In this document: piece after piece, positions 1 through 20,437 of the stretch
Numbering within the stretch: position 1 is the first letter of the stretch
How the letters are laid out: every line of letters begins with the position of its first letter
IMG/VR virus record: IMGVR_UViG_3300033148_007469
Coordinates: 1-42,689 of that record
DNA: 42,689 bases
Strand: one strand, 5' to 3'
DNA from: a virus
Notes under the pieces: generated by a model
Seen by the model: the letters and a program-made list of their open reading frames with translations, nothing else
What the model was told of the DNA's origin: nothing
The model's database searches: none
Translations under genes and position numbers: made by a program

Positions 1-3000
1 TCATCAAGTTCCCAATCTTCAAGTTCAAGTTCACAAAGTTCAGCATCTTCAGAAAGCTCAAGTAGTTCAAGCAGAACACCTTGTACATTTGATGATGATT
101 TTGATGGAGTTGATGGTGATTCACCTGATCCTTATAAGTGGAAAGAGTATGATTTTGATCCAGTTGCATTAAGTATACAATCTAATAAACTTAATTTTAA
201 TTACACTGGTACAATATCTAAAGTGCCTTTTATTAGAGCTAGAAATAGTCAAAGTGGTTGGGGTCTTGGTGGTGATTTTGATATTAGAGTGGATTTTGAT
301 GTTACTACTTTAGATGCCAGTGATATCTCGGATCCAAATGGATTTGCTTTTAGAGTAGTAGAATCTGATGGTTCAATTTATTCAATTTATAGAGCCAGAA
401 GCTCTTCTAATAATTCATATATGCTATGGGCTAGTGGAGAGGGTAGTATATGGGCAAGTACATCTGCAGCCACATCTGGTAAATTAAGATTAACAAAAAC
501 TGGTTCTACAATTAAAGCATACCATTGGACAAACTCACAATGGGAATGGAATGGTAATACTAATGGTTATACATTTGTAAATACATCTTCTGATCCTTTA
601 TTTGTGGAAATGTCGTTTATACATCTTTTAACATCTTCATCAACAACAGTAAATATGAACGCAGATAATTTTATTGTATATGATGGTTGTGATGATCTTT
701 ATTCATCAAGTTCAAGTTCTAGTTCACAAAGCTCAAGTTCACAAAGCTCAAGTTCAAGCTCAGAAAGTTCAAGTTCACAAAGTTCAAGTTCAAGTTCACA
801 ATCTAGTTCTTCAAGTTCACAATCTAGTTCTTCAAGTTCACAAAGCTCAAGTTCACAAAGCTCAAGTTCCTCAAGCTCAAGTTCACAATCTAGTTCTTCA
901 AGTTCACAAAGTTTAAGTTCAAGTTCACAAAGTTCAAGTTCTAGTAAATCTATTAGTTCTTCAAGTTCACAAGAATCTAGTTCAAGTTCACAAAGCTCAA
1001 GCTCAAGTAGTGAATCCAGTTCAAGTAGTGAATCATCATCAAGTTCAAGTAGTGAATCAAGTTCAAGTTCAAGTAGTGAATCAAGTTCAAGTAGTGAATC
1101 AAGTTCAAGTAGTGAATCAAGTTCAAGTAGTGAAAGTTCATCAAGTTCAAGCTCAGAAAGTTCAAGCTCATCAAGCTCGGAAAGCTCAAGCTCATCAAGT
1201 TCAAGTAGTGAGTCTAGTTCAAGCAGTAGTTCTGAAAGTTCTTCAAGCAGTAGTTCTGAAAGTTCTTCAAGCAGTAGTTCACAATCTAGTTCTTCAAGTT
1301 CACAATCTAGTTCTTCAAGTTCACAAAGCTCATCAAGTTCAAGTAGTGAAAGTTCAAGTTCAAGTAGTGAAAGTTCAAGTTCAAGTAGTGAGTCTAGTTC
1401 AAGTAGTAGTTCTGAAAGTTCATCAAGTTCAAGTAGTGAGAGTTCATCAAGCAGTAGTTCACAATCTAGTTCATCAAGTTCACAATCTAGTTCATCAAGT
1501 TCACAAAGCTCAAGTTCTTCAAGTTCAGAAAGTTCAAGTTCTAGTAGTGAATCTAGTTCAAGTAGTAAAAGTTCTGAAAGCTCAAGTTCTGAAAGCTCAA
1601 GTTCTGAAAGCTCATCAAGCAGTGAAAGTTCATCAAGCAGTAGTTCTGAAAGTTCATCAAGCAGTAGTTCTGAAAGTTCATCAAGCTCAAGTTCTGAATC
1701 TAGTTCATCATCTAGTGAAAGTTCTAGTTCATCAAGCAGTGAAAGTTCTAGTTCAAGTTCAGAATCTTCAAGTTCAGAATCTTCAAGTTCAAGTTCACAA
1801 AGTTTAAGTTCAAGTTCACAAAGTTCAAGTTCTAGTAAATCTATTAGTTCATCAAGTTCACAAGAATCTAGTTCAAGTTCACAATCTAGTTCATCAAGTT
1901 CACAAAGCTCTGAATCATCAAGTTCATCAGAAAGTTCATCAAGCTCAAGTTCTGAAAGTTCATCAAGCTCAAGTTCTGAAAGTTCATCAAGCTCAAGTTC
2001 TGAAAGCTCCAGTTCTTCAAGTAGTGAATCTTCAAGTTCAAGTAGTGAAAGCTCAAGTAGTGAAAGCTCATCAAGTAGTGAATCTTCAAGTTCAAGTAGT
2101 GAAAGCTCATCAAGCTCAAGTTCAGAATCTTCTAGTTCACAAAGTTCATCAAGTTCAAGTTCTGAATCATCAAGCTCAAGTTCAATGTCTTCTAGTTCAA
2201 GTTCACAAAGTTCTTCAAGCTCAAGTTCACAATCTAGTTCTTCAAGTTCAAGTTCTGAAAGCTCATCAAGTTCAAGTTCCGAATCTAGTTCTTCAAGTTC
2301 AATGTCTTCAAGCTCAAGTTCACAAAGTTCTTCAAGCTCAAGTTCCGAATCTAGTTCTTCAAGTAGTGAATCAAGCTCAAGTAGTGAATCTAGATCAAGT
2401 TCTGAATCATCAAGTTCTGAATCATCAAGCTCAAGTTCTGAAAGTTCAAGTTCTTCAAGCTCCGAAAGCTCTTCCAGCAGTAGCTCCGTAGTGAATCTAG
2501 TTCATCATCTAGTCAAAGTTCAAGTTCATCAAGTTCTGAGAGTTCATCAAGTTCTGAGAGTTCATCAAGCAGTAGTTCTGAAAGTTCATCAAGCAGTAGT
2601 TCTGAAAGTTCATCAAGCAGTAGTTCTGAAAGTTCATCAAGCAGTAGTTCTGAAAGTTCATCAAGTTCTGAGAGTTCATCAAGCAGTAGTTCCGAAAGTT
2701 CATCAAGCAGTAGTTCTGAAAGTTCATCAAGCAGTAGTTCTGAAAGTTCATCAAGCAGTAGTTCTGAAAGTTCAAGTTCTGAGAGTTCAAGTTCTGAGAG
2801 TTCCTCAAGTTCCAGTTCACAAAGCTCAAGTTCAAGTTCACAATCTAGTTCTTCAAGTTCACAAAGCTCAAGTTCACAAAGCTCTGAATCATCAAGCAGT
2901 AGTTCTGAAAGCTCATCAAGTTCAAGTAGTGAATCAAGCTCAAGCTCAAGTAGTCAAAGTTCTAGTTCAAGTAGCGAATCTTCATCAAGTTCAGAATCAT

Positions 3001-4328
3001 CAAGCAGTAGTTCTGAGAGTTCTTCAAGTTCAAGTTCTGAAAGCTCATCAAGCAGTAGTTCTGAAAGTTCATCAAGTTCAAGTTCTGAAAGTAGTAGTTC
3101 TAGCCAGGAAAGTTCTAGTTCTTCCGCATCTACTAGTTCTTCTAGTTCACAAGAATCTAGTTCTAGTTCAACATCTTCAAGTTCTAGTTCACAAAGTTCC
3201 GAATCTTCCAGCTCAAGTAGTGAATCAAGTTCAGAAAGTTCATCAAGTGAATCCAGTTCAAGTTCAAGCTCAAGTAGTGAATCAAGCAGTAGTTCTGAAA
3301 GCTCATCAAGTTCAAGTTCACAAAGTTCTAGTTCTGAATCAAGCTCAAGCTCAAGTTCAGAAAGTTCTTCTAGCTCAAGTTCTGAATCGAGTTCTTCAAG
3401 TTCAATGTCTTCTAGTTCAAGTTCACAAAGTTCTTCAAGCTCAAGTTCTGAATCAAGTTCTTCAAGTTCAATATCTTCAAGCTCAAGTTCACAAAGTTCT
3501 GAAAGTTCTAGTTCAAGTGAATCAAGTTCTAGTTCTGAAAGTTCGTCAAGTTCTAGTTCTGAAAGTTCGTCAAGTTCAAGTTCTGAGAGTTCATCAAGTA
3601 GTGAAAGTTCAAGTTCCAGTTCTGAGAGTTCATCAAGCAGTAGTTCTGAATCTAGTTCATCAAGTTCTATTTCTTCACAAAGTTCTAGTTCACAATCAAG
3701 TTCTTCTAGTTCACAATCAAGTTCTTCTAGTTCACAATCAAGTTCTTCTAGTTCACAATCAAGTTCTTCTAGTTCACAATCAGTATCAAGTTCTAGTTCA
3801 GGCTCAAGTTCAAGTTCTTCACAAAGTTCTGAAAGTTCATCAAGTGAATCCAGTTCAAGCTCAAGTAGTGAAAGTTCTTCAAGTTCTGAAAGTTCATCAA
3901 GCTCAAGTTCAATATCATCTTCTAGTTCTTCAAGTTCACAAAGTTCTAGTTCTTCAAGCTCAGAATCATCAAGTTCAAGTTCAATGTCTTCAAGTTCAAG
4001 TTCACAATCATCTAGCTCAAGTAGTGAATCATCTTCAAGTGAATCATCTAGTTCTTCTATTAGAAGTTCATCTAGTTCACAAAGTTCACAATCATCTAGC
4101 TCAAGTAGTGAATCTAGCTCAAGTTCAAGTAGTGAATCCAGCTCAAGTCAAAGTTCTGAAAGTTCAAGTTCTAGTTCTAAATCTCCTACAGACATAAACA
4201 TTCAATTAGAACTACTTGAAATGAATTGGACAATATTTGATCAAGTTGTTTCAATTATTAATGAGCGACTTGGGAGAGAACCAGAATATATAAACACAAC
4301 AACAAATTTAATTTTTTATCTTACTTAG
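1..4328 (+). CDS. Giant serine-repeat fibre-like protein 1 (5' end outside window, one frameshift)
   Basis: The frame is open from base 1, so the gene begins upstream. It encodes a Ser/Gln/Glu stretch (about residues 1-24 of the visible part), then a globular island of about 210 residues (to base 702) rich in alternating beta pattern, aromatic and Gly residues, resembling a laminin-G/concanavalin-type jelly roll. After that come about 1,160 residues of Ser runs broken by single Gln, Glu or occasional Met/Lys. A short non-repetitive C-terminus begins with SPTDINIQ and ends at the TAG at 4326-4328. Frame 1 loses register at about 2487, where TCC-GTA-GTG replaces an expected TCC-AGT-AGT; one missing A explains it, and the third frame then stays open to 4328. 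Repairing it gives 1,442 visible residues. A naive call running on to 4197 has an out-of-frame tail. Probably a virion fibre or surface filament, judged from its place beside tail genes; no receptor-binding motif is recognised. Confidence 0.75.
703..4184 (+). repeat. Serine-repeat coding tract 1 (Ser runs with Gln/Glu)
   Basis: About 3.5 kb is built almost only from Ser codons TCA, TCT, AGT, AGC, TCC and TCG, plus CAA or GAA. Units are commonly 5 to 9 codons long: a run of 4-8 Ser followed by one Gln or Glu. Gln dominates the first 350 bases and Glu the middle; the two mix, with some Met (SSSSMSSSSS), after base 2100. The other frames also stay open for long distances, which creates spurious Val/Gln/His-rich and Leu/Asn-rich reading frames. 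Confidence 0.95.
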
Positions 4329-4336
4329 TATAAATA
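4329..4336 (+). promoter_or_regulatory. T4-type late promoter box TATAAATA upstream of neck/tail genes
   Basis: An exact TATAAATA lies directly after the stop codon of the preceding fibre gene and 22 bases before the ATG at 4358. In T4 this octamer is the whole late promoter, read by the gp55 sigma subunit. The match is seen; the function is inferred from its recurrence ahead of other blocks in this window. Confidence 0.5.
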
Positions 4337-4357
4337 AACAATAGAGGTATATAATTT

Positions 4358-4690
4358 ATGTCAGCATTAGATGCATATAAAAAAATGTTAGAAAATGGTT
4401 CAGCATCAAAACCAATAAAAATATCACAGCCAACACCTGAAAATCCAGATGGTGGTATTGGTGGTAGTATGGCACAAAACACATCATTAGGTGAATCAAA
4501 AGAAGATACTAGTTGGCAAGAATTTGATTCACAAATGCAAGAATATAAAAAAACAAGAAAACCAAAAAAACAAGTTAAGTCAAAAAACGAAAGCAATATA
4601 GTAAAAAAACTTGAAAGAAGAATTGTTCTTCTTGAAGGCATTGTAGAACAAATAATGAAAACACAAATGGATTTATTGAAAAATGGGTAA
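4358..4690 (+). CDS. Small hypothetical protein with C-terminal coiled coil
   Basis: 110 residues, not recognised. The N-terminal half is polar and Pro/Gly-rich. Residues about 65-107 are charged with a heptad-like pattern (VKKLERRIVLLEGIVEQIMKT) suggesting a short coiled coil. An AGAGGT ribosome site lies about 9 bases before the ATG. Its last 8 bases overlap the start of the gp14-like gene, so the two are probably translated together. Its place as the first gene after a late promoter box and just before neck and tail completion genes suggests a small structural or assembly protein; that role is inferred only. Confidence 0.7.
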   Translation: MSALDAYKKMLENGSASKPIKISQPTPENPDGGIGGSMAQNTSLGESKEDTSWQEFDSQMQEYKKTRKPKKQVKSKNESNIVKKLERRIVLLEGIVEQIMKTQMDLLKNG

Positions 4691-5336
4691 AATTGGATCA
4701 AATGAGTGGGAATTATATGATATTTCTAGTAATGTTGAACAAGATTTGTTCAAAGGATATATTACTGAATTTACTGATATTGCTGGAATAAGAATAGAGT
4801 ATTATATAAGAGATGAGAGTATTGAAATGGATGATTTGTATGGTGAATCAACAAATACAAGTTATATGACACCAAAAGAAACTAAAATTGTTTATGATGT
4901 AACAGAAGAACCGACAATGACAACAGGTTTTGGTATTAATTCAGAGGAACAAATACAATATGCTTTAATGCCAAAGTTTACTTTTACAAGAGATGTTAGT
5001 GGTGGATATAGTCCTAAACCCGGCGATGTTATTAAAACAATATGGAATAATAGAGTATATGAGATAGCTGATGTTGATGAAGAGGCACATATTTTTCATT
5101 TGAATAAACAAATATGGTCGTTTATTTTGAAACCATTTAGATTTAGCGATCAATCACAATCTATTGGTAATAATGTTGGTCCAGATGATATAACACAATT
5201 TAATAGAGATCCATCACCAGAGTTAAATCCAGACACAACCACTCAACCATTGACAGCTTATGGTGATAATAAATTTATAGAAGAAGAAAGTGATGAAATA
5301 ATTGATTACGATAATTCAATTTATGGGAATTTTTAA
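4683..5336 (+). CDS. Neck protein, T4 gp14-like
   Basis: 217 residues; T4 gp14 has 256. The central part (about residues 95-160) carries the pattern typical of this family: a Pro/Gly turn (PKPGDVI), an aromatic strand with YEIADVDEE, then a hydrophobic strand with FHLNKQIWSFILKPFRFSDQ. The N-terminus has a YIRDES stretch like the conserved start region of T4-like neck proteins, and the C-terminus is acidic and probably flexible. gp14 forms part of the neck that closes the filled head before the tail joins. Order supports the call: the next recognised tail gene is gp15-like. Assignment rests on remembered family pattern and context, not an alignment; a different head-closure protein remains possible. 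Confidence 0.6.
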   Translation: MGKIGSNEWELYDISSNVEQDLFKGYITEFTDIAGIRIEYYIRDESIEMDDLYGESTNTSYMTPKETKIVYDVTEEPTMTTGFGINSEEQIQYALMPKFTFTRDVSGGYSPKPGDVIKTIWNNRVYEIADVDEEAHIFHLNKQIWSFILKPFRFSDQSQSIGNNVGPDDITQFNRDPSPELNPDTTTQPLTAYGDNKFIEEESDEIIDYDNSIYGNF

Positions 5337-5355
5337 ATAATAGGAGATTAAAATA

Positions 5356-5646
5356 ATGACTAGAGATTATGATTATGAAGAAAAAGTAAACGATGCTTAT
5401 AAAAAAGTTCTTGAATACGATAAAGAAAAAATAGATGAGATCAAAGATAAGAAAGATAAGCAGTTTAAATGGACACATGGCATTAATGATGCTTATAAGA
5501 AAGCTATAAATGAAACTGTAGACATGACAGGTGAGAAATGTGAGAAATGTAAAAAAGGTGTTTATAAAGAAACATCAATACATGATGATGCTGATGGTGT
5601 ATTACATTGTTCAGAATGTAATGATCAAATAAAAAGATATAAATAG
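5356..5646 (+). CDS. Small zinc-ribbon-like protein
   Basis: 96 residues. The N-terminal half is very charged (Lys/Glu/Asp) and helical, with the motif DAYKK appearing twice (residues about 13 and 45). The C-terminal third holds two CxxC pairs, CEKC and CSEC, 22 residues apart, which fits a zinc ribbon. A good GGAGAT ribosome site precedes the ATG. It lies between two virion assembly genes, so a small structural or assembly factor is likely. No specific family is recognised. Confidence 0.7.
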   Translation: MTRDYDYEEKVNDAYKKVLEYDKEKIDEIKDKKDKQFKWTHGINDAYKKAINETVDMTGEKCEKCKKGVYKETSIHDDADGVLHCSECNDQIKRYK

Positions 5647-5655
5647 AGTTATTAA

Positions 5656-6426
5656 ATGGCTAGAGAATATTATTATTATAAAGCATTTAGAAAAACAATC
5701 ATTCAATTTCTAGATATATTTAATGAGATAAATATTGCTAGGTATGAAAGAGATGGTACTACTATTTCTAAATATATAGAGGTTCCTATAAAATTAGCAG
5801 TTAAAGAAAAAACTTGGTATTGGTTACATGAAAGAAAAGATGATCAAATGTTACCAATGATAACTGGTTGGATATCTGCAATTGATTATGCGGCAGATAG
5901 AAAAATTAATTCTGGTTATCAAATAACAAGCTCAACCGATGTAGATGGTGGATCAGTATCAAGATATCTTTTACCAGTTCCATATAATTTAACATTTACA
6001 TTAAATATATGGTCATTACATATGAGTGATATAGATCAAATACTTGAACAAATTTTACCTTGGTTTGATCCTTTTATATATGTTAAAATGAATATACCAG
6101 AACTTGACTGTGCGTATGATATAAAAGTTATATTTCAAAGCTGTACTCCAGAAGTTTCACTTGAAATGGCTGATGAGGATTATAGAGTTATTAACTATAC
6201 AATTGATTTCTTAGTGGAAACTTATTTATTTAAACCAATTTCAAATTCAGGAATTATCAAAGAAATTATAACTAGTTATTATACAAATGAAGATGTGTTT
6301 GAATCTAGATCATTTACATCTTCAACAGTTTCAGCAGCTCCTTCTGGTGGTATAAGAAATTTAATAATAGGTTGGAAAGATGAAGATGGGAATACAATAA
6401 CTAAAATGGAGGAATTTGGACCATAA
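5656..6426 (+). CDS. Tail completion / sheath stabiliser protein, T4 gp15-like
   Basis: 256 residues, close to T4 gp15 (272). The order of features fits the family: an N-terminal helix, a strand with IEVPIKLAVKEKTWYW, a LPMITGWISAIDYAADRKIN segment, VPYNLTFTLNIW with ILEQILPWF (about residues 112-140), and a long beta-rich end with EVSLEMADEDYRVINYTIDF. In T4, gp15 caps the tail tube and sheath and joins tail to head. The stop codon overlaps the next ATG by one base (TAATG), so it is translationally coupled to the tube gene. Confidence 0.8.
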   Translation: MAREYYYYKAFRKTIIQFLDIFNEINIARYERDGTTISKYIEVPIKLAVKEKTWYWLHERKDDQMLPMITGWISAIDYAADRKINSGYQITSSTDVDGGSVSRYLLPVPYNLTFTLNIWSLHMSDIDQILEQILPWFDPFIYVKMNIPELDCAYDIKVIFQSCTPEVSLEMADEDYRVINYTIDFLVETYLFKPISNSGIIKEIITSYYTNEDVFESRSFTSSTVSAAPSGGIRNLIIGWKDEDGNTITKMEEFGP

Positions 6427-6944
6427 TGGGACTTTGTGGTGATGCAAATATAAGTTTGAATAAAGCAGCTCCGACAAATTTTGTTTTGTCGTTTCCAGTG
6501 CTACCAACTCAAACAACAACATCAGGTAGTGTTCCTTTAGTTATGAATATTTTTGGTGCTGTTGTTCCTTCTATTAGTTTAAATTCAGAAGAAAAAATGT
6601 GGCAAAATACTAAAGTAAAGGGTGTTCAATCGCCTTTAGAATTTGATCAATGGTTAGTAAATTTTGTTGTAGATGATTATTTTCAAAATTGGAAACTTCT
6701 TTTTGATTGGATGGCATATATAAATAATAATAAAGATAAAATGATGGAACGAGAAATTAATTTTAAAGTTGATGCATCATTAATTCTTTTAAATAATTTT
6801 AAAACAAAAATTTTAAATATAACATTTGTTGGTATATGGCCAACTACTTTAGGTGAGGTTTCAATGAACCAAAGAGAAGGCGATATATCATTAGAATGTA
6901 TGGTAAACTTTAATTATGATTATTTTGAAGTAGAAGAGCTATAA
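6426..6944 (+). CDS. Tail tube protein, T4 gp19-like
   Basis: 172 residues (T4 gp19 is 163). The family pattern is clear: APTNFVLSFPVLP near the start, then VPSISL, a DQWLVNFVVDDYFQNWKLLFDWM block (about residues 78-100), SLILLNN, and a C-terminal strand series ISLECMVNFNYDYFEV. Tube subunits stack as hexamers inside the contractile sheath. It lies between the gp15-like and sheath genes; in T4 the tube follows the sheath, so the local order is changed. Confidence 0.85.
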   Translation: MGLCGDANISLNKAAPTNFVLSFPVLPTQTTTSGSVPLVMNIFGAVVPSISLNSEEKMWQNTKVKGVQSPLEFDQWLVNFVVDDYFQNWKLLFDWMAYINNNKDKMMEREINFKVDASLILLNNFKTKILNITFVGIWPTTLGEVSMNQREGDISLECMVNFNYDYFEVEEL

Positions 6945-6947
6945 AAA

Positions 6948-6966
6948 TATAAATAATATATAAATA
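6948..6966 (+). promoter_or_regulatory. Double TATAAATA late promoter box before sheath gene
   Basis: Two exact TATAAATA octamers, 6948-6955 and 6959-6966, lie in the 81-base gap before the sheath gene. The doubling ahead of one of the most abundant virion proteins fits a strong late promoter. Assignment is by analogy with T4. Confidence 0.5.
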
Positions 6967-6987
6967 AGGTGTAGAATAATATTAGCT

Positions 6988-7009
6988 TATCTATTTTATA
7001 AAATAGATA
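6988..7009. promoter_or_regulatory. 22-base perfect palindrome in sheath leader
   Basis: TATCTATTTTA is followed directly by its exact reverse complement TAAAATAGATA. It ends one base before the AAAGGAG ribosome site of the sheath gene. It could form an mRNA hairpin in the leader or be a protein operator. It is not a terminator, because no T run follows. Confidence 0.45.
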
Positions 7010-7025
7010 TAAAGGAGAAAAAAAT

Positions 7026-8807
7026 ATGGCATTATATTTAAGCCCACTTGTGGACATTAACGAAATTGATTTAACTACAACAATACCTGCTGTAGCAACT
7101 TCAATTGGTGCTATTGTACTACAAAATACCTGGAAAGGGCCAGAAAAAAAACAAATACTAGTAACAAGTGTTGATGAATTAATAGAAAATTTTGGAGAAC
7201 CAACATCAACAGAATATGAGGATATTTTAGCAGCAACAGGCTATTTAAAATATGGTTCTGTTCTTTATTGTACAAGAATGATGCCATCAGGTGCTACATT
7301 TGCTGGTGTTTATGGAACACCAGCTGCTTCAGGATCATTAACAGCATATACAACAGCAGTATCTGATGCATATACATTAACAGATTTTGCTTCAGAAGAT
7401 CCGGATGAATTTGGTAATGAAAGCGTTGTTTTTGATGCAGGAAGAGCTGACAATGGATATACTTTATCAATTATAGCAAAAAGTAGAGGATTATGGGGTG
7501 AATCTATAAAAGTAGCTTTAGTTGGCAGAGATACTTATAATAGTGTAAGACAAGGAACATTAGCCGGACCTATAGGAATATCACAAGATTTGCATGATGA
7601 TATTAGTGATTGTGATGTATTATTTAGTTCTGATTATCAGTTTCTTATATTAGTAAAAGCTGCTAGTCAAACTCAAGCAAGCATATCACCAATTACATAT
7701 AGTGTAGTAGAAAAATATCTTGTATCTACAAGCACTTCAGAAGCTGATGATGAAGGACAAAATCTTTTTTGTGAATCATCAATAAATAGTTCTTCTAATT
7801 ATATTAGAATAGCAATGTCATCAGCACATGAAAATACTGATTATTCGTCATTTTTTACAACTGACTATACTCTTTATGATGGTGGATCAAATGGTGGAAC
7901 ATTAACAGATAGTGATATAATAGCTGGTTATGATTTATATCAAAATCCAGAAGAAATAGATGTAAATATTTTTATTGATTCTGGTAAATCAACAGCAGTT
8001 AAAACAAGATTAATTGATATTTGTGAAATAAGAAAAGATTGTATGGCTATATTGGATGTTCCTAAATCATTAGTTGTAAATAACAGAGGAAGCGAATCTA
8101 CAGATTGTAGAGATTTTCGTTTGGGAACACATGCAACACCAGCATATCAGTTTAATGAAAATACAAGTTATGCTGCTGTATATGCAAATTGGTTAAATAT
8201 TTATGATAAATGGAGTGGAAGATATCGCTGGGTGCCGTCTTCTGGTCATGTAGCTGGAATTTATGCTAATACAGATAATGTTTCTGATCCTTGGTTTGCA
8301 CCAGCAGGACTTAATAGAGCTATTTTGTCTGGTATACGAAAGCTAGCTTGGAATCCAACAAAGGGTGAAAGAGATACTCTTTATAAAAATGGTTTAAATC
8401 CAATTGTTTCTTTTGCTGGTCAAGGAAAAGTTGTTTGGGGTCAAAAAAATATGTTGGACAAATCTTCAGCATTTAATAGAGTAAATGTAAGAAGATTATT
8501 TATTATTTTGGCTAAGTCAATATCGACAGCATTAAAATATTTCTTATTTGATCCGAATGATGCATTTACGAGAATTCAAATTATAAATATGATTGAACCT
8601 TTCTTGAGAGATGTTAAATCTAGAAGAGGTATATATGATTATCTAGTTGTTTGTGATGATAGAAACAATACTAGTGAAAGAATTGCAAGAAATGAATTAT
8701 GGTGTGATATATATGTTAAACCAACAATAGCTGCTGAATATGTTGTATTAAATCTAGTAGCAACTAAAACAGGTGCATCATTTACAGAGCTTGTTTCTTC
8801 TGTATAA
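7026..8807 (+). CDS. Tail sheath protein, T4 gp18-like
   Basis: 593 residues (T4 gp18 is 659). The N-terminus (SPLVDINEIDLTTTIP) and the PEKKQILVTSVDELIENFGEP segment are typical of myovirus sheath subunits. The C-terminal third has the most conserved part of the family: FNRVNVRRLFIIL, ALKYFLFDPND, a DVKSRRGIYDYLVVCDDRNNT block, and YVKPTIAAEYVVLN. The protein forms the contractile tail sheath. A strong AAAGGAG ribosome site sits about 8 bases before the ATG. Clear full-length match. Confidence 0.95.
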   Translation: MALYLSPLVDINEIDLTTTIPAVATSIGAIVLQNTWKGPEKKQILVTSVDELIENFGEPTSTEYEDILAATGYLKYGSVLYCTRMMPSGATFAGVYGTPAASGSLTAYTTAVSDAYTLTDFASEDPDEFGNESVVFDAGRADNGYTLSIIAKSRGLWGESIKVALVGRDTYNSVRQGTLAGPIGISQDLHDDISDCDVLFSSDYQFLILVKAASQTQASISPITYSVVEKYLVSTSTSEADDEGQNLFCESSINSSSNYIRIAMSSAHENTDYSSFFTTDYTLYDGGSNGGTLTDSDIIAGYDLYQNPEEIDVNIFIDSGKSTAVKTRLIDICEIRKDCMAILDVPKSLVVNNRGSESTDCRDFRLGTHATPAYQFNENTSYAAVYANWLNIYDKWSGRYRWVPSSGHVAGIYANTDNVSDPWFAPAGLNRAILSGIRKLAWNPTKGERDTLYKNGLNPIVSFAGQGKVVWGQKNMLDKSSAFNRVNVRRLFIILAKSISTALKYFLFDPNDAFTRIQIINMIEPFLRDVKSRRGIYDYLVVCDDRNNTSERIARNELWCDIYVKPTIAAEYVVLNLVATKTGASFTELVSSV

Positions 8808-8843
8808 TAAATATAGCATACTAACATAATAGGAGTGAATAAA

Positions 8844-9440
8844 ATGGAAGTAAGATTAATAACAGAAACATCATATGATTTTGAAATTATAGAAGATAGT
8901 AAAAACAATAATACATATGTTGCTGGGATTTTTTCCAGTGCAGATATTGTAAATTCAAATAATCGTAAGTATAAAAAGCCTATACTAGAACGAGAGGTTT
9001 CTAAAATCAATGAAAAACTTGAAAAGAAATCTCTTTGGGGAGAGCTTGGGCATCCTAACATGCCCGAAGTTAATGCTGATAGGATTGCTATACTAACAAC
9101 TCAACTAGAGTGGAAAGGAAATAATCTTTATGGTAAGGCTAAAGTACTGGATACTCCTATGGGTAATATTGCGAAAACATTAATAAAAGAAGGCAATATG
9201 GGTATTAGTTCTAGAGGATTGGGAACAGTTGCGGATGATGGTTATGTAAATGAAGATTTTAATTTAATAACTTGGGATCTTGTTACTGATCCTTCAAATG
9301 GGCCATCTTGGGTAAAAGGTATTTACGAAGGTAAATCATTTGATGAGTACTTCAAAAAAGAACCAACCATAGAGGACGCTAAAGAATATTTAAAGAGAAA
9401 AATTTGGCAAGTAATAGAAAATATAGATAAAAATCTCTAA
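8844..9440 (+). CDS. Prohead core protease, T4 gp21-like (peptidase S80 type)
   Basis: 198 residues from ATG 8844 (T4 gp21 is 212). The GTG at 8835 is also in frame but lies inside the AGGAG ribosome site, so ATG 8844 is preferred. The protease signature is present: His70 in LWGELGHP and the Ser pair at 122-123 in GISSRGLG, with NSNNRKY upstream. The family matures the prohead by cutting scaffold and capsid proteins after Leu/Ile-x-Glu. It is followed by scaffold and capsid genes as in T4. No portal gene lies between it and the sheath. Confidence 0.92.
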   Translation: MEVRLITETSYDFEIIEDSKNNNTYVAGIFSSADIVNSNNRKYKKPILEREVSKINEKLEKKSLWGELGHPNMPEVNADRIAILTTQLEWKGNNLYGKAKVLDTPMGNIAKTLIKEGNMGISSRGLGTVADDGYVNEDFNLITWDLVTDPSNGPSWVKGIYEGKSFDEYFKKEPTIEDAKEYLKRKIWQVIENIDKNL

Positions 9441-9498
9441 TTCAAATCATTTGATATTATTGAATATTAGAATATTTATGCTATTTTTATAGTATATG

Positions 9499-9506
9499 TA
9501 TAAATA
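9499..9506 (+). promoter_or_regulatory. TATAAATA late promoter box before scaffold/capsid genes
   Basis: An exact octamer in the 112-base gap between protease and scaffold genes, 46 bases before the scaffold ATG at 9553. It would drive the scaffold and major capsid genes up to the terminator at 11663. The rest of the gap is AT-rich and holds nothing else I can name. Confidence 0.5.
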
Positions 9507-9552
9507 ACATAAAAGAAAGTATAATTTTTAAAATAAATAGGAGGAATAAGAT

Positions 9553-10383
9553 ATGGATAAACTTCTTGAAATGTTGGGTGCGAATAAGTTGGATGAATCA
9601 ACTCAAACTCAAATTAAGGAAAAACTTGAAACACTTATTGGAGTGAAAGCTCAAGAAAAGGTTAATACAATTCTAAAAGAAGAAAAGGATAAACTGGTTG
9701 AGTCTTATGAAGGAAAATTTGAAGAATACAAAGAAGAAATTACAGGCAAATTTTCGAATTTTGTAGACTCTGTTCTTGATGAAGAATTAACAATTCCTGA
9801 TAAAATTATTGAATTTGCTAAAAAAGGCGAACTTTATCATGATTTGATTGAACAGTTTAAAATTCGTTTGAGTGTAGATGAAGGACTTTTAGATGAGGAA
9901 GTAAAGGGGCTTTTGAAAGAAGCGAAAGAAGAAATTCTTAAATTACGTGAAAGCATGAATAAACAAATTGAGGAAAATCTTGAAACTCGTAAAGATGCTC
10001 AAGAAATGGCTTCTGAAATTTATTTAAGAAGAAAATGCGATGGTCTTACAGAAGGCCAGAAAAAATATGTTATGGAAATGTTAGACAGCGTTACTGATAA
10101 ATCTGAAATAGATAAAAAATTCGATATCATTCTTGAAGCTTATAAAGAAGAAGACGATGAGGATGATGACGATAAGAAAGACAAAGACGATGAAGATGAC
10201 GACAAAAAAGGTAAAGGTAGTGTAGATGAGAAAGACGAAGAAGACGATGACGATGATGACGATAAGAAAGACAAAGATGATGAGGACGATGAAGACGATG
10301 ATGATAAGAAAGACGAATCTTCAAGTCCTTTCAAAGATGTAATGAAGCAATATGTAAAAGTATTACAAGAAAACAAAATTTAA
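9553..10383 (+). CDS. Prohead scaffold (major core) protein, T4 gp22-like
   Basis: 276 residues (T4 gp22 is 269). Nearly all helical and highly charged, with long coiled-coil stretches from about 20 to 190, as expected for the internal core around which the capsid assembles. Residues about 197-257 are an extreme Asp/Glu/Lys repeat (DDKKDKDDEDD units), followed by a conserved-looking C-terminal helix (FKDVMKQYVKVLQENKI). Position between protease and capsid protein matches T4. GGAGG ribosome site. Confidence 0.88.
   Translation: MDKLLEMLGANKLDESTQTQIKEKLETLIGVKAQEKVNTILKEEKDKLVESYEGKFEEYKEEITGKFSNFVDSVLDEELTIPDKIIEFAKKGELYHDLIEQFKIRLSVDEGLLDEEVKGLLKEAKEEILKLRESMNKQIEENLETRKDAQEMASEIYLRRKCDGLTEGQKKYVMEMLDSVTDKSEIDKKFDIILEAYKEEDDEDDDDKKDKDDEDDDKKGKGSVDEKDEEDDDDDDDKKDKDDEDDEDDDDKKDESSSPFKDVMKQYVKVLQENKI
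10140..10316 (+). repeat. Acidic Asp/Glu/Lys repeat in scaffold gene
   Basis: Imperfect repeats of GAY/GAR/AAR codons (units like GACGATAAGAAAGACAAA) encode the charged tail of the scaffold. The low-complexity codons leave two antisense frames open (Ser- and His/Leu-rich); these are not genes. Confidence 0.8.
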
Positions 10384-10414
10384 AATATTATAATAAAAGT
10401 AGGAGGAAACAAGC

Positions 10415-11647
10415 ATGAATGTAAAAGACCTTATAAAAAAATGGGGAGGGGTTCTAGATGAAGGATCTCCAATTACATCATCTAAGATTAAAAAATCAAC
10501 AGCTATTATGTTGGAAAATCAACATAACTCTTTGATGGAAACAACTGGATGGGGTACTGGGGCAGATTCGTTTGGTGCTGGTGATGGTGTTGGTAGTGCA
10601 AACTATGGAACATCTGGTGTATTCCAAAAAATTGCCGTTCCAATGGTTCGAAGAACTTTCCCAGAACTGGTAGCACATCAACTAGTTGGTGTTCAACCAT
10701 TGACTGGTCCTGTTGGCCTTGCTTTCGCGTTGAGATTTAAAGCTGGTACAACATCAGGTACTTATACAGCTAACACTACAGAATTGGGATATAATACTCT
10801 TGATTCTACGTATTCTGGTTCTTATGTAACATCCGCTGGTGAAGCACTTGGTTCAGCAACGGGAACACCAGGAACAGTTGGTAGTGATATTGGTTTAGGT
10901 TTAGGAACTGGAACCCATATTCGCGAAGTAAACATGACAGTAGAGAAAACACAAGTTGAAGCAAATACTCGTAAATTGAGAAGTCGTTGGTCACTTGAAG
11001 TAGCTCAAGATTTGAAAGCTATGCATGGGTTGGAACTTGAAGAAGAAATGATGGATATCCTAGCATATGAAATCACAGCAGAAATTGATCGCGAACTTAT
11101 TGCGGCAATTGATACTACAGTACATAATGTACTTAATTATCACAGAACATGGTCATTCACAACATCAGCAACACAAACTGGTCGTTGGGAAATGGAACGT
11201 TACCGTGAATTGTATCATTATCTAATCCGTAGATGTCAAGATATTGCTATCAATACTCGTAGAGGATCTGGTAATTGGATTGTTGGTAATCCGAGAGCCG
11301 TTGCTATACTTGAAACCTTGGCAGCATTTACAATCGCCCCTGTAGCTGGTGATGTAAATACAGCACCAACTGGTGTATCAAGACTTGGTTCACTTGATGG
11401 AAGACTTACGGTTTACCGTGATACATTCCAATCAGCAGATCAATTTTTGATTGGTTATAAAGGACCATCTGAGTATGATACAGGTGTTATTTATCTACCT
11501 TATATTCAACTATTGGCTTCAAAAGCAGTATTTGAAAATTCATTCCAACCTTCAATTGGATTGATGAGTAGATATGCAATACATAATCATATTTTTGGTG
11601 CGAAAAATTATTACCAAAAGATTACAATGACTAACTTACCTACGTAA
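10415..11647 (+). CDS. Major capsid protein, T4 gp23-like
   Basis: 410 residues, shorter than T4 gp23 (521). The family block around residues 70-108 is clear: VPMVRRTFPELVAHQLVGVQPLTGPVGLAFALRF. Later blocks include TVEKTQVEANTRKLRSRWSLE, AQDLKAMHGLELEEEMMDILAYEI and a C-terminal SRYAIHNHIFGAKNYYQ. The first 42 residues look like a removable N-terminal piece; SLME at 39-42, just before TTGWGTG, fits the L/I-x-E cleavage rule of the S80 protease. AGGAGG ribosome site; more C-ending codons than neighbours, in keeping with high expression. Followed directly by a strong terminator. Confidence 0.95.
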   Translation: MNVKDLIKKWGGVLDEGSPITSSKIKKSTAIMLENQHNSLMETTGWGTGADSFGAGDGVGSANYGTSGVFQKIAVPMVRRTFPELVAHQLVGVQPLTGPVGLAFALRFKAGTTSGTYTANTTELGYNTLDSTYSGSYVTSAGEALGSATGTPGTVGSDIGLGLGTGTHIREVNMTVEKTQVEANTRKLRSRWSLEVAQDLKAMHGLELEEEMMDILAYEITAEIDRELIAAIDTTVHNVLNYHRTWSFTTSATQTGRWEMERYRELYHYLIRRCQDIAINTRRGSGNWIVGNPRAVAILETLAAFTIAPVAGDVNTAPTGVSRLGSLDGRLTVYRDTFQSADQFLIGYKGPSEYDTGVIYLPYIQLLASKAVFENSFQPSIGLMSRYAIHNHIFGAKNYYQKITMTNLPT

Positions 11648-11662
11648 GATAGTTTGATTTAT

Positions 11663-11698
11663 AAAAAAGGAGTGTGAACAATTCACACTCCTTTTTTT
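11663..11698 (+). terminator. Rho-independent terminator after capsid gene
   Basis: A perfect 10-base stem (GGAGTGTGAA / TTCACACTCC, 11669-11678 with 11682-11691) with a 3-base loop, flanked by an A run and a 7-T tract. Ends the scaffold-capsid transcription unit. Confidence 0.95.
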
Positions 11699-11741
11699 AT
11701 GCTTAAAATTTCATTTACTTTCTTGGCTTTTTATGATATTA

Positions 11742-11749
11742 TATAAATA
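11742..11749 (+). promoter_or_regulatory. TATAAATA late promoter box opening the terminase/PrkA unit
   Basis: An exact octamer 19 bases before the small terminase ATG and about 45 bases after the capsid terminator. Together with the terminator at 17555-17588 it defines a separate unit of six genes. Confidence 0.55.
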
Positions 11750-11768
11750 ACTCTTAGAGGTGTATTAT

Positions 11769-12197
11769 ATGGAAATTGATAGACAAAATCTAGAAGATGA
11801 ATTTGATATGGAAAACATAAGTAATGATATTTCAAATTTAGAGCCAGTAAATGTTGATGATCCAGAAGAAGTTATAAAATCAAATATTGAAAGAGCAGAG
11901 CGTATATTAAATTTATTAGAAAATGAGCTTAATAGAGGAAATATAACAGCAAGAATGATGGAGGTCGCATCTACTTTAATAAATTCTGTTACACTATCAT
12001 CAAAGGAATTAATATCAGATAGAAACTACAAATCTTATTTACAAGTTCGTCAACAAATGATACAATATAAATATGATGAATTAGATTTTAAAAAAAATAA
12101 AAAGGAACAACCAGTAAATCAAAATTTAATTATTGCGAACAGAGAGGATATTCTTAAAATTATCAATAAATCAGAAACGAAAAAAATAGGAATATAA
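11769..12197 (+). CDS. Terminase small subunit, T4 gp16-like
   Basis: 142 residues (T4 gp16 is 164). After an acidic start it has the family's helical hairpin: IERAERILNLLENELNRGN, then MMEVASTLINSVTLSSKELI (about residues 40-85), followed by a basic tail. Small terminases of this type form a ring that recognises DNA and regulates the packaging motor. A GTG at 11760 is in frame, but AGAGGTG overlapping it is better read as the ribosome site for ATG 11769. Unlike T4, the large terminase is not next: five genes of the PrkA unit and two others intervene. Confidence 0.65.
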   Translation: MEIDRQNLEDEFDMENISNDISNLEPVNVDDPEEVIKSNIERAERILNLLENELNRGNITARMMEVASTLINSVTLSSKELISDRNYKSYLQVRQQMIQYKYDELDFKKNKKEQPVNQNLIIANREDILKIINKSETKKIGI

Positions 12198-12200
12198 AAT

Positions 12201-14216
12201 ATGAATGAGAAAGGAAAAAAGAATACAATGATTAATAACAATTGTGATGGTAATGTCGGTAACACCAATGATTTTACAGAAATTATTGTGAAACAAAAAA
12301 ACGAAACAAAAGCATTCGAACAATGGGAAGGAACGGTTCTTGACTATCTTAAAAAGGTAGATGAGAACAAAGAAATTGCTGATTTCGCATCAGGTCGTGT
12401 TTTTAATATGATGATGCAAAGAGGAACGGAAGAAGTGGATAGATCACTACTAACACAGGGGTATGATGATCTTGTAAAATACAATTTCTTTGATGATAAG
12501 ATGTATGGAATACATGAACCAATTCATGATATGATGAAATTTTTGAAAGCCGCATCAAGGAGAACTGAAACAGGTAAAAGAATTCTTTTGCTTGTTGGTC
12601 CAGTTTCTTCTGGTAAATCAGAAACAGTCAAACTCATTAAAAAGGGATTGGAAAGATATGAAACAGAAAAATATGCCATCAAAGGATGTCCTATACATGA
12701 GGAACCATTGCATGCTATTCCAGATAGTGATAGACCATTCTGGAATGAAAGATTAAAAACAAAAATTGAAGGAATGTTATGTCCTAAATGTCAGCAAAAT
12801 ATTGATGAGAATTATACTAAAGATGGTGTTGTTCAGTGGGACACCATCCCTGTTGAGAAAATTAATATTTCTGAGCAACGAAGAGTATGTATTGGTACTT
12901 TTCAGCCTTCTGATCCTAGCTCACAGGATATTACAGAACTTATTGGTAGAGTTGATACAGCAAAGCTATCAAGGTTTGGTGAGACAGACCCAAGAGGGTA
13001 TAAATTCGATGGTGAACTACAAGTTGCAAATGGTGGTATGATTGAATATGTGGAGTTATTAAAAGCTGATATAAAATTCCACTATGTTCTTATTACAGCC
13101 GCTCAGGAACAACTTATTAAGTCTCCTGGTTTTCCACAAATGTATATTGATACAATGATTGTTGGTCATACTAACCAGACTGAGTTTGATTCTTTTAAAG
13201 CAGATAAGAAAAACGAAGCTCTACATGATAGAATGTATATTGTTAAATGGCCTTATAATCTAAGAGTAGATGATGAAATTAAAATCTATGAAAAGATGAT
13301 TAGAGAATCTGATTTCAGAAATATACATGTAGCACCAGGTACTCTAAAAGCCGCTGCTCAATTTGCAATTTTAACAAGGCTTACTAAAAGTGGAAATGTA
13401 TCATCTTTGATTGAAAAAATGAATATCTATAATGGTGAAATATCAGAAGAATTCAAAAAAACAGATGTTGATTTAAAACATTTGATTGAGGAAGGTAGAA
13501 AGAATGGAGAAGGTATGTTTGGTATTTCTCCAAGATTTATTATCAATGCTATGAATATAGCACTTGGTTCAAAAGAATCAAAAAACTGTATTAATGCAAT
13601 TGATATTATTCGTGCCTTGAGAGATAACTTTTCACATCATATTGGTATCGCAGAAGAGGAAATTGAAAATTATATGAATCTATTGATTGCTAGTAAAGAT
13701 TCTGTATCATCAAAGTATAAGGAATTCGCTATGAAAGAAGTAAACATGGCATTTTTACATGCATATGAGGAACAGGCAGAATCATTGTTCGAAAGATATA
13801 TGATAAATGTTGAGTCTTTCTGTAAAAAAGAACAAATTGAGGATTCTATTACTGGAGAGTATGGTGGTCCGGATGAAAAAATTATGAGATCTATTGAAGA
13901 ACTAATAGGTGTTCCACAGGAAGGCAAGGAAACATTTAGAAATGGTATTTTTGTTTATAAGTCAGATTATTTAAGTAGAAATCTTCCATTTACATATAAT
14001 GATTATGATCCTATTCGCGAAGGTATTGAAAAGAAACTCATTAGCGATTTAAGGAATGTTGTGTCATTATCATTGACCGATTCATCATCAACAAATCCAA
14101 AATCAAAAGCTAAGAGAAATAAGGCTGTAAGAACGCTTTTGAAAAAGGGATATTGTGAGAAATGTGCAAACACTTTACTATCATATATTGGTGAGGCACT
14201 TCGCAGAGATTCGTGA
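12201..14216 (+). CDS. prkA: PrkA/YeaG-family AAA+ serine protein kinase
   Basis: 671 residues; bacterial PrkA/YeaG are about 630-645. Walker A is GPVSSGKS at 133-140. Family landmarks follow in order: KGCPIHEEPLHAIP (161-174), a CPKC pair (194-197), IGTFQPSDPSSQDITELIG (231-249), DPRGYKFDGELQVAN (263-277), KADIKFHYVLITAAQEQ, GHTNQTEFDSF, then KNEALHDRMYIVKWPYNLRVDDEIKIYEK. The C-terminal third should hold the kinase-like part. In Bacillus and enterobacteria PrkA acts in sporulation, stationary phase and nitrogen stress, as kinase and AAA+ ATPase (an AAA+ protease role has also been proposed). The first about 60 residues look like an added N-terminus; Met10 is a possible alternative start. 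It forms one unit with YeaH- and SpoVR-like genes. Confidence 0.95.
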   Translation: MNEKGKKNTMINNNCDGNVGNTNDFTEIIVKQKNETKAFEQWEGTVLDYLKKVDENKEIADFASGRVFNMMMQRGTEEVDRSLLTQGYDDLVKYNFFDDKMYGIHEPIHDMMKFLKAASRRTETGKRILLLVGPVSSGKSETVKLIKKGLERYETEKYAIKGCPIHEEPLHAIPDSDRPFWNERLKTKIEGMLCPKCQQNIDENYTKDGVVQWDTIPVEKINISEQRRVCIGTFQPSDPSSQDITELIGRVDTAKLSRFGETDPRGYKFDGELQVANGGMIEYVELLKADIKFHYVLITAAQEQLIKSPGFPQMYIDTMIVGHTNQTEFDSFKADKKNEALHDRMYIVKWPYNLRVDDEIKIYEKMIRESDFRNIHVAPGTLKAAAQFAILTRLTKSGNVSSLIEKMNIYNGEISEEFKKTDVDLKHLIEEGRKNGEGMFGISPRFIINAMNIALGSKESKNCINAIDIIRALRDNFSHHIGIAEEEIENYMNLLIASKDSVSSKYKEFAMKEVNMAFLHAYEEQAESLFERYMINVESFCKKEQIEDSITGEYGGPDEKIMRSIEELIGVPQEGKETFRNGIFVYKSDYLSRNLPFTYNDYDPIREGIEKKLISDLRNVVSLSLTDSSSTNPKSKAKRNKAVRTLLKKGYCEKCANTLLSYIGEALRRDS

Positions 14217-14260
14217 GAATTTCATAAATATAAATTATAAAATCAAAGAAAGGGTATTGG

Positions 14261-14545
14261 ATGAATGACAATGAAGAGTTTGAAGATGATGATCTTGATG
14301 AGTTTTCTTTTGGAAATGATAAAAGTAAAATCAGAATAGCATATGAGGATATAAGGTCTATAATATATAGTTTTATTATGATGATCTTCTATAATATTAG
14401 AAGATCATCAACATATAGAACCATACATATAGGCTTTATGATTCTATGGGCTATAATATGCTGGACAGTAACACTAGGACAATTTGATATAAAAATAATG
14501 GATGGTGAAAACAAAAATGTTATTTTCCATTTACCAAGTTTATAG
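14261..14545 (+). CDS. Small single-helix membrane protein between prkA and yeaH genes
   Basis: 94 residues, not recognised. An acidic N-terminus (Asp/Glu-rich, residues 1-20) leads to a hydrophobic, amphipathic stretch (about 34-46) and one clear membrane helix at about 57-72 (IGFMILWAIICWTVTL), then a polar end. A ribosome site (AAAGAAAGGG) lies about 6 bases before the ATG, and a near-match to the late box (TATAAATT, 14229-14236) lies upstream. Its position inside the PrkA-YeaH-SpoVR unit suggests a membrane anchor or partner for these cytosolic proteins; inference only. Confidence 0.75.
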   Translation: MNDNEEFEDDDLDEFSFGNDKSKIRIAYEDIRSIIYSFIMMIFYNIRRSSTYRTIHIGFMILWAIICWTVTLGQFDIKIMDGENKNVIFHLPSL

Positions 14546-14556
14546 AAAGGAATAGA

Positions 14557-15969
14557 ATGACAATAATATATCATGATCGCTGGGGACTATCAGACAAGGG
14601 AAGAAAAGATGCACAAAGGCATCGTGAAAAAATTGATGATGCTATTCGCAGAAACGCCCGTGATGTCATTGGTGAAGAATCAATTATAACTAGAAAGGGT
14701 AAGAAGATAGTAAGAATACCTGTAAGGGGATTAAAAGATTATCGTTTTATTCATGGTAATAGTAAAGGTAGTGGTGGTGCTGGACAAGGTGATGGTGGAC
14801 CAGGTGATATAATAGCTAGAAAACCAAAACAGGGACATGGTGATTCAAAACCTGGTAATCAAAGAGGTATTGATTATATGGAAACAGAAGTCGATATAGA
14901 TTATCTTCTAAAAATCATGTTTGAAGATTTAGGATTACCTTGGATTGAAGAAAAAACAAAAGCAAGACAGATTATACCAAAAGGCTGGAAATTTAAGGCT
15001 ATATCGAAAAAAGGTATACCACCCAGATTGCATAAAAAGAGAACAATGATAGAAACAATTAAGAAGAATATTGTTCTAGCAGCAGCTATAATGGAAGATA
15101 CAGGATGTGATGAAGAAACAGCTTATAAAGCATTAAATATGTCATTCTGTGATCTAAATGAAGCTATTATGATAGTTAAGGAGAATAGAGTAGATCCAGA
15201 TGCATCAACAGACCTAGTTATAACAGATGATGATATGAGATTCAAAAAAATAGAACAAACAGTAGAATATCATTCGAATGCTGTTGTTATTGCTATGATG
15301 GATGTATCTGGTTCAATGTATAAAGAGAAAAAATATCTTTGTAGAAGTCTATTATTCTGGATGACAGAGTTTCTAAAGAAATCATATGAACATGTTCAAA
15401 TAAGATTTATACAGCATACAACAGAAGCACAGGTTGTAGATGAAGATTCGTTTTTCAATAGAGGCGAAAGTGGTGGGACTTTATGTTATACAGCATTTGA
15501 ACTAGCAAATTATATGATTGAAACAGAATATCCAATAAATGAATGGAATGTGTACTGTGTATATTGTGGGGATGGAGAGGATTTTGATACAGAAAAAACA
15601 GTCAAACAAATCCAAATCATGTTAGATAAAAAAGTTAATATGTTGAGTTATATTGAAGTTTTGTTAAATGGAGAACATACATATAGTGGTTCTTTGTTAA
15701 ATAAAATCAAAAGCAAATGGAGGTTTAAGACCGCAAGAATAAAAAGAACGGATTTTCTAAAGAATGATGAATTGAGATTTTTATGTTCTATAATAAAAGA
15801 TTTCAAAGGAGAAGAAATAATGAAAGTGTTAAACATAAAAGAAAACGAAGATGGTTCTGCTAATGTTGAATTAGATATTGATGATACAGAATTAAATATA
15901 CTCGTTGAATATGCTATTGTGACCCTACTTAAAGAATATATAAAAAGTGAAAGGGATATAAATGAATAA
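14557..15969 (+). CDS. yeaH: YeaH/YhbH-family VWA protein (DUF444) with inserted UBA-like segment
   Basis: 470 residues; bacterial YeaH is about 430. The N-terminus (DRWGLSDKGRKDAQRHREKI) and the Gly-rich linker (66-102) are hallmarks of the family. The metal-binding VWA site is AMMDVSGSMYKEKK, with DVSGS at 249-253. FIQHTTEAQVVDEDSFF, GESGGTLCYTAFELA and YCGDGEDF follow in family order. Residues about 172-212 look like an inserted three-helix UBA/EF-Ts-type module (IMEDTGCDEETAYKALN, then DLNEAIMIV). YeaH works with PrkA/YeaG in bacteria, probably as a substrate or scaffold. The stop overlaps the next start by 8 bases. Confidence 0.93.
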   Translation: MTIIYHDRWGLSDKGRKDAQRHREKIDDAIRRNARDVIGEESIITRKGKKIVRIPVRGLKDYRFIHGNSKGSGGAGQGDGGPGDIIARKPKQGHGDSKPGNQRGIDYMETEVDIDYLLKIMFEDLGLPWIEEKTKARQIIPKGWKFKAISKKGIPPRLHKKRTMIETIKKNIVLAAAIMEDTGCDEETAYKALNMSFCDLNEAIMIVKENRVDPDASTDLVITDDDMRFKKIEQTVEYHSNAVVIAMMDVSGSMYKEKKYLCRSLLFWMTEFLKKSYEHVQIRFIQHTTEAQVVDEDSFFNRGESGGTLCYTAFELANYMIETEYPINEWNVYCVYCGDGEDFDTEKTVKQIQIMLDKKVNMLSYIEVLLNGEHTYSGSLLNKIKSKWRFKTARIKRTDFLKNDELRFLCSIIKDFKGEEIMKVLNIKENEDGSANVELDIDDTELNILVEYAIVTLLKEYIKSERDINE

Positions 15970-17446: not shown

Positions 17447-17553
17447 TAATTATTATATCAATAGTATTATGTGTTGTTGTTTTTATTCTTGGTTGTATTA
17501 TGGGAACAACAAAATGGTTTGATAAATTAATGAAAGATATATTAGATAAATAA
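17443..17553 (+). CDS. 36-residue membrane microprotein at end of PrkA unit
   Basis: The ATG overlaps the SpoVR stop (ATGA), and AAAGG lies 5-8 bases upstream in the end of SpoVR. The product starts MIIIISIVLCVVVFILGCIM, one full membrane helix, followed by a short Lys/Asp-containing amphipathic tail (WFDKLMKDILDK). Stop TAA at 17551-17553, two bases before the terminator stem region. Coupled translation, good ribosome site and position argue it is real. Unknown function; a second small membrane partner in this unit is plausible. Confidence 0.65.
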   Translation: MIIIISIVLCVVVFILGCIMGTTKWFDKLMKDILDK

Positions 17554-17554
17554 T

Positions 17555-17588
17555 AAAAAGGGATAGATATAAAAATCTATCCTTTTTT
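17555..17588 (+). terminator. Rho-independent terminator after PrkA-YeaH-SpoVR unit
   Basis: The stem GGATAGAT / ATCTATCC (17561-17568 with 17575-17582) has a 6-base loop, extended by an A run pairing with a 6-T tract. Confidence 0.9.
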
Positions 17589-17601
17589 ATGCTCAATATT
17601 A

Positions 17602-17609
17602 TATAAATA
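17602..17609 (+). promoter_or_regulatory. TATAAATA late promoter box before methyltransferase/terminase genes
   Basis: An exact octamer 19 bases upstream of the ATG at 17629 and just after the preceding terminator. Confidence 0.5.
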
Positions 17610-17628
17610 TATATAAGTATAATTAATT

Positions 17629-18827: not shown

Positions 18828-18855
18828 TAAGTAAAACCAAGGAGTGTGAATTAAA

Positions 18856-20403: not shown

Positions 20404-20409
20404 AAATTA

Positions 20410-20417: not shown

Positions 20418-20437
20418 AATAATAAGAGAGATAAAAA

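Follow-up and report, generated by a model that had tools for sequence, protein, structure and literature searches.

Apparent relocation of the portal gene away from the other head genes in a minor lineage of uncultured T4-like phages

The window analysed here, the entire 42,689-bp record of an uncultured virus (IMGVR_UViG_3300033148_007469), is a genome fragment that appears to show one side of a gene-order rearrangement, in which the portal gene was most likely relocated (probability roughly 0.85), and neither lost nor too diverged to be recognized. The novel gene junctions are present in several contigs, the changes are reciprocal, and a sister contig carries the portal, the main tube gene gp19, and the genes from the small terminase (TerS) to gp13 together. 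The "missing portal" becomes a rearrangement with both products in hand.

The T4-like virion cluster, delineated by open reading frames (ORFs) and scans with PHROG and Pfam, fills the left half of the window and includes a gp23-type capsid, a gp21 protease, a gp18 sheath, and a gp17 terminase. All window features listed in this paragraph lie on the plus strand. The left flank is formed by the gene of a Ser-rich repeat protein (1–4197; 5' end cut) without matches in PHROG, Pfam, or NCBIfam. Next comes TATAAATA (4329–4336), a site resembling a T4-type late promoter, ahead of a gene group designated block B: orf110 (4358–4690), which lies between gp13 and gp14 in relatives; the gp14-like head closure protein Hc2 (4683–5336; phrog_679, E = 2.6e-9); orf96 (5356–5646); a gp15-like sheath stabilizer (5656–6426; phrog_227, E = 3.1e-48); a gp3-like tail tube terminator, not the main tube (6426–6944; T4 gp3, E = 1.5e-20); and the tail sheath gp18 (7026–8807; phrog_23, E = 2.2e-106). 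After a novel junction at the place that the portal holds in relatives (8808–8834), block A starts with the prohead protease gp21 (8835–9440; phrog_207, E = 5.5e-55) and continues with the scaffold gp22 (9553–10383; phrog_237, E = 2.3e-8), the major capsid protein (MCP) gp23 (10415–11647; phrog_138, E = 4.3e-85), a gp16-like TerS (11760–12197), a PrkA serine kinase (12201–14216; PF08298, E = 1.7e-107), a DUF444 (YeaH-type) protein (14557–15969; PF04285, E = 1.9e-85), a SpoVR-like protein (15962–17446; PF04293, E = 6.7e-91), the large terminase (TerL) gp17 (18856–20403; PHROG and Pfam), and the gp13-like head–tail adaptor Ad2 (20438–21268; phrog_211, E = 2.4e-23). A second novel junction (21269–21303), common to the window and the sister contig G044, joins gp13 to the glycosyltransferase GT858 on the right flank (21304–23880; Pfam; 82.8% identity to the G044 copy).

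Several features of the flanks are peculiar. The Ser-rich protein reaches 1671 amino acids in contig L101 (967–5982), a very long ORF with open frames also in other frames, and a leftward extension of the window via the gene upstream of it recovered only L101's own contig. On the right, the region 3' of gp13 (21304–31531) encodes glycosyltransferases and about six small methyltransferase-like genes and has much in common with G044. Further downstream, a plus-strand ORF of 1862 amino acids (33733–39321) without PHROG or Pfam matches lies opposite an ORF of 1679 amino acids on the minus strand (33174–38213).

The original prediction, made from the sequence alone, held that the sheath is followed at once by the protease and that the portal is gone from its T4 position. 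Both statements were confirmed: the sheath stands upstream of the protease with a gap of only 27 bp, and no frame of the window matched a portal profile. The portal profile PF07230 had no match in the window; it matched 22 of 24 related records (E = 4.0e-35 to 9.5e-106; the misses are G010 and G018) and none of 14 control genomes, and the relatives were therefore used as positive controls. A clade portal profile of 76 sequences found no match in the six stop-to-stop frames of the window, G018, and L101. It yielded E values below 1e-250 for G044, G025, G033, G002, and G003, which are not independent, because some of these portals belong to the profile. The large unassigned ORFs of the window (1–4197, 21304–23880, 32444–33667, 33733–39321, 39755–41260, and 41261–42688) are unlikely to include the portal, as none of them was assigned to a portal family by PHROG, Pfam, NCBIfam, PF07230, or the clade profile. 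A gp20-type portal is thus absent from the window fragment and is present in the sister contigs G044 and G025.

The sheath/protease junction occurs in five distinct sequences with different sample numbers, namely the window, G018 (3300035698), L105 (3300033149), L002 (3300031578), and L106 (3300031673), with a spacing of 19–27 bp, and the sheath and protease of the other four share 74–92% identity with those of the window. Near-identical copies of the junction are found in L001 (3300033153) and L101 (3300033141). Although all sequences are metagenomic assemblies, their number and diversity make a single bad assembly an improbable source of the junction, and we consider an assembly chimera extremely unlikely.

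The gene order of relatives was derived from loci retrieved by similarity to the MCP, the sheath, a portal alignment, and the G025 portal (80 kept of 100, 107, 133, and 91 confirmed). Because the loci were chosen by similarity, the counts below do not represent population frequencies; genes identical over 400–500 bp were collapsed, and accessory genes were skipped in favor of the next core gene. According to the gene maps, the prevailing order in the head part is portal, small gene, protease, scaffold, MCP, TerS, PrkA, DUF444, SpoVR, TerL, and gp13, which continues with orf110, gp14, gp15, gp3, sheath, gp19, hub, tape measure, and tube cap. Accessory genes interrupt this order in many relatives. 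The whole run from portal to cap is present on one record (G033, whose PHROG matches provided the names hub, tape measure, and cap), and G003 has portal, protease, TerL, gp3, sheath, gp19, and cap in that order. Upstream of 98 distinct proteases, the portal is the nearest core gene in 88 cases and the sheath in 5, with none found in the remaining 5. The sheath is followed by gp19 in 64 of 79 cases, by the protease in the same five sequences, by a second sheath in 2, and by no detectable core gene in 8. The portal precedes the protease in 82 of 93 cases and gp19 in 2 (G025 and G044); none was found in 9. Downstream of gp13 (35 distinct genes), gp14 comes next in 22 cases and GT858 in 2 (window and G044); the remaining 11 show no further core gene.

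The same survey uncovered other irregularities. The portals of L262 (G031), L234, and L250 lack a core gene downstream over 1.9–7.1 kb and are possibly other displaced portals. In L036 and L047, the block TerL–SpoVR–DUF444–PrkA–TerS is inverted between MCP and gp13, which constitutes another rearrangement of the same region. Extra neighboring copies of the sheath gene are present in L117, L124, L125, L137, and L138, the last of which also has tube-like copies. A sheath scan over genome contigs returned one short contig, L349, which had been assigned to the MAG of a Thermoplasmata archaeon and carries the sheath and gp19 of the clade; this represents either a binning error or a hint at the host.

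In a tree of 90 MCPs, the sequences of the window type (window, G018, L002, and L003; L001, L101, and L105 were not included) form one clade (100/100) inside a group of 32 rows (100/99). The assignment of L003 to the window type is based solely on 91% identity, as its 2.1 kb hold no protease. In all other members of this group whose upstream side is readable, the portal precedes the protease. The gene order of the window is therefore derived within the clade, as judged from the tree; the window-type clade is shallow and nested among phages in which the portal precedes the protease. The original prediction had taken the reshuffled order to mark a deep-branching lineage, which is not supported by this placement. 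The wider clade as a whole is only distantly related to annotated phages: the top-ranked MCP match has 35.9% identity, and all 2513 matches are under 60%. This distance would agree with an ancestral order in a deep-branching T4-like lineage, but such a scenario is highly improbable considering the nested position of the window-type MCPs. Moreover, in phage C48C1 (OQ984149), the top-ranked match, which falls outside the clade, the protease also follows the portal, separated from it by two small genes. Its order is gp13, gp14, gp15, TerS, TerL, sheath, tube, portal, two small genes, protease, scaffold, and MCP; unlike in the window, the portal lies between tube and protease, and TerS and TerL are adjacent.

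In a tree of 78 portals, the portals of G025, G044, and G045 form one clade (100/100), although G045 is cut inside its portal and its displacement is assumed from 84% identity. Window-type MCPs and displaced portals each adjoin a group with G002, G033, and L005, albeit at weak forks (93/68 for MCP and 91/54 for the portal), and the two halves plausibly belong together. Tetranucleotide signatures do not link G025 with the window (cosine of 0.40, below the 0.51 of G033), although repeats weigh on this measure.

Both G025 (25,486 bp) and G044 (76,834 bp) carry the portal, the small gene, and accessory genes, followed by gp19, hub, tape measure, and cap. The small gene, which encodes about 60 amino acids and follows the portal in five of six relatives checked, has stayed behind the portal in both contigs and is absent at the junction in the window. 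On G044, the portal (9772–11775) ends 1.8 kb before gp19 (13585) and 43,028 bp upstream of TerS (54803), from where the contig continues with PrkA, DUF444, SpoVR, TerL, and gp13 (66192), then GT858 (67077) and much of the glycosyl- and methyltransferase run of the window. The genes from TerS to GT858 share 73–88% identity with those of the window, except orf214 (55%), and those beyond GT858 share 68–82%, except orf192 (43%) and the last partial gene (34%); the DUF5662, GT310, orf100, and MT171 genes of the window have no best match in G044. A profile search of G044 for sheath and protease found neither. G018, which has the same sample number as G044, holds orf110 through sheath, protease, scaffold, and MCP, all missing from G044, and lacks portal, gp19, hub, tape measure, cap, TerL, and gp13, all of which G044 has. 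We infer that the two contigs are complementary parts of one genome. The portal, the sheath/protease junction, and TerS do not occur together on any single contig.

Of the two explanations that the original prediction had offered for the missing portal, placement elsewhere is supported by the arrangement on G044, whereas excessive divergence is contradicted by the strong matches of the displaced portals to PF07230 (E = 3.6e-100 for G025 and 7.8e-93 for G044). Loss of the portal in the window type, or its replacement by an unrelated one, for instance in a defective or satellite phage, would also explain why no portal profile matches the window, G018, or L101. All three are fragments, however, and the gp20-family portal of the sister G044, into which an intein is inserted, shares one molecule with the genes from TerS to gp13, which renders loss or replacement very unlikely.

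Matches to inteins and related elements are not restricted to the portal of G044 (L354:9772–11772), where an intein-splicing domain scores above the cut-off. PrkA and SpoVR of the same contig show weaker splicing matches, SpoVR together with a LAGLIDADG domain above the cut-off, and its TerL is divided into two parts, with a weak match to an intein (the loci with these matches are L356:15257–18319, L357:16–2592, and L357:3915–6079). The portals of L024, L037, L071, and L078 are likewise enlarged or split.

The relocation of the portal can be rationalized by an ancestral state in which blocks A and B, in the order A–B, lay between the portal with its small gene and gp19. Both blocks would have left this slot and rejoined as B–A between the Ser-rich protein gene and the glycosyltransferase cassette, and the portal with its small gene would have remained near gp19, separated from it by accessory genes. 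Excision of A–B as a circle would join the sheath to the protease, and reopening of the circle between gp13 and orf110 upon reinsertion would yield the order of the window; an equivalent block interchange would have the same outcome. The portal of the window phage itself would then lie off the contig. No direct trace of the circle was found, and a search for repeats in the window (4198–21400) detected none over 24 nt touching the breakpoints, the longest two-copy repeat being an AT-rich pair of 24 nt (10376–10399 and 21272–21295).

In the pair of G044 and G018, MCP and TerS are also parted, and more than one event therefore occurred. The gene downstream of MCP in G018 weakly matches a restriction-enzyme-type family (PF18741, E = 1.9e-4, below the cut-off), and sugar genes on the minus strand come after it. 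It is possible, if on balance improbable, that portal, gp19 module, and neck genes moved separately instead of by one block interchange. Besides the separation of MCP and TerS, the inverted TerS–TerL block of L036 and L047 indicates that pieces of this region have moved more than once in the clade. On the other hand, the three broken adjacencies (portal/protease, gp13/gp14, and sheath/gp19) and the new ones (sheath/protease and portal–gp19) fit a single interchange, and a contig with only one broken adjacency was not recognized among those fetched, although the portals of L262, L234, and L250 are unexplained.

The remaining elements of the reshuffled order differ in origin. The predicted distances were accurate, with 15.1 kb between the gp14-like and gp13-like genes (predicted, about 15 kb) and 6.66 kb between TerS and TerL (predicted, about 6.7 kb). 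The separation of gp13 and gp14 is part of the rearrangement, but the gap between TerS and TerL is not. It is occupied by a bacterial-type prkA–DUF444 (yeaH)–spoVR operon (12201–17446) that is present also in most relatives: among 65 distinct TerS genes, the next core gene is PrkA in 55 and TerL in 5, with a contig edge in 5, and SpoVR is followed by TerL in 34 of 39 cases. Judging from this distribution, the operon is an older insert, and the gap predates the displacement of the portal. A gene of about 396 amino acids takes the place of the operon in L318, L323–L328, and L335. The PrkA of the window has matches in 16 of 50,697 annotated phage records and the SpoVR in 9, mostly Thermus phages and huge metagenomic phages. 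The identity of TerS itself is based on a weak PHROG match (E = 0.0085) and on matches of the family profile to the solved T4-like small terminases 3txq and 3txs (E = 6e-4 to 7e-4); a Foldseek search with its model gave no match better than E = 1.2.

The claim that the tube precedes the sheath did not hold. The family profile of the gene in question (6426–6944) has its stronger match in T4 gp3 (E = 1.5e-20), compared with E = 8.3e-4 for gp19, and the clade profiles of gp3 and gp19 separate from each other in profile searches. The model of the protein has a tube fold with VIA-align Z scores of about 12.7–12.9 to gp3, gp54, and tubes alike, and the fold alone does not discriminate between them. 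The profile of the main tube gp19 matches the tube of C48C1 with 117.8 bits, and gp19 probably went with the portal.

In the window, the octamer TATAAATA, which we take to be the T4-type late-promoter consensus, stands upstream of orf110, sheath, scaffold, TerS, and gp13 and occurs also inside the sheath gene (at 8582). In G033, it precedes portal, scaffold, TerS, and sheath. The protease of G033 lacks such a site, and in the lineage of the window this gene was presumably transferred from the transcript of the portal to that of the sheath. The number of upstream intergenic regions with the octamer exceeds the base-shuffled expectation (in parentheses) in the window, 6/13 (0.58); G044, 10/45 (0.80); G033, 5/26 (0.34); G003, 12/89 (1.69); and G040, 15/129 (3.26); the enrichment is weak in G002, 3/89 (1.39); G025, 1/11 (0.29); and G028, 1/8 (0.34). 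Because virion proteins act in trans and the octamer precedes many units, function could have persisted after the rearrangement.

Endonuclease-like genes are located near the changed places in sister contigs: the interval from portal to gp19 in G044 includes an HNH-like gene (E = 7.6e-4, narrowly missing the cut-off), and in L103 the Ser-rich gene is preceded by a GIY-YIG gene. Homing endonucleases have been proposed as agents of rearrangement in T4 relatives (Petrov et al. 2010, PMC2993671), which is only a lead for the lineage of the window. A speculative and rather doubtful extension is that the late virion genes of the clade behave as promoter-bearing cassettes whose order is permuted by excision and reinsertion, probably through homing endonucleases and inteins, and that portal-initiated head assembly has been freed from the linkage of portal and prohead genes.

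A rearranged order of core genes is already known from T4 relatives (PMC2993671; PMC4546147). The core genes of the phages compared by Petrov et al. occur in several arrangements, and the available text is silent on whether any of the listed topologies parts the portal from the prohead protease. Also in the T4-type Campylobacter group II phages, the virion modules differ in order and orientation between the close relatives CP21 and CP220/CPt10 (PMC4546147). Their modules, however, comprise 28–55 kb with long repeat regions at the borders, and two are inverted, whereas the breaks in the lineage of the window lie between single genes, its virion genes are on one strand, and no repeat over 24 nt is present at the breakpoints. 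The Far-T4 contigs (Roux et al. 2015, PMC4360716) are likewise metagenomic fragments of uncultured, distant T4-like phages in which the MCP gene has portal, terminase, and tail genes in its vicinity, but they are reported to be largely collinear, and the words kinase and SpoVR are absent from the text. A literature search of partial coverage retrieved no account of the clade and none of a portal separated from the prohead genes. Overall, gene shuffling of a fairly ordinary kind appears to have left the portal distant from the other head genes in this minor lineage. The adjacency of portal and protease, which is kept in 88 of 93 proteases with a readable core neighbor, is breakable while sister contigs keep the portal, and gene neighborhood is a poor guide to what is "missing" or "deep-branching" in fragmentary phage contigs.

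A leader such as MKFKDYIKE or IDKYLNE starts about 6–33% of the genes in G044, G025, G045, G033, G002, G003, G040, G028, and G010, which is 3 to 17 times the rate at internal positions for a motif written after seeing examples. It resembles the capsid-targeting leaders of T4. Such leaders comprise 10–20 residues in T4 and are removed by the prohead protease (PMC5694885). The window has one match to the motif (18183–18827), a number equal to chance.
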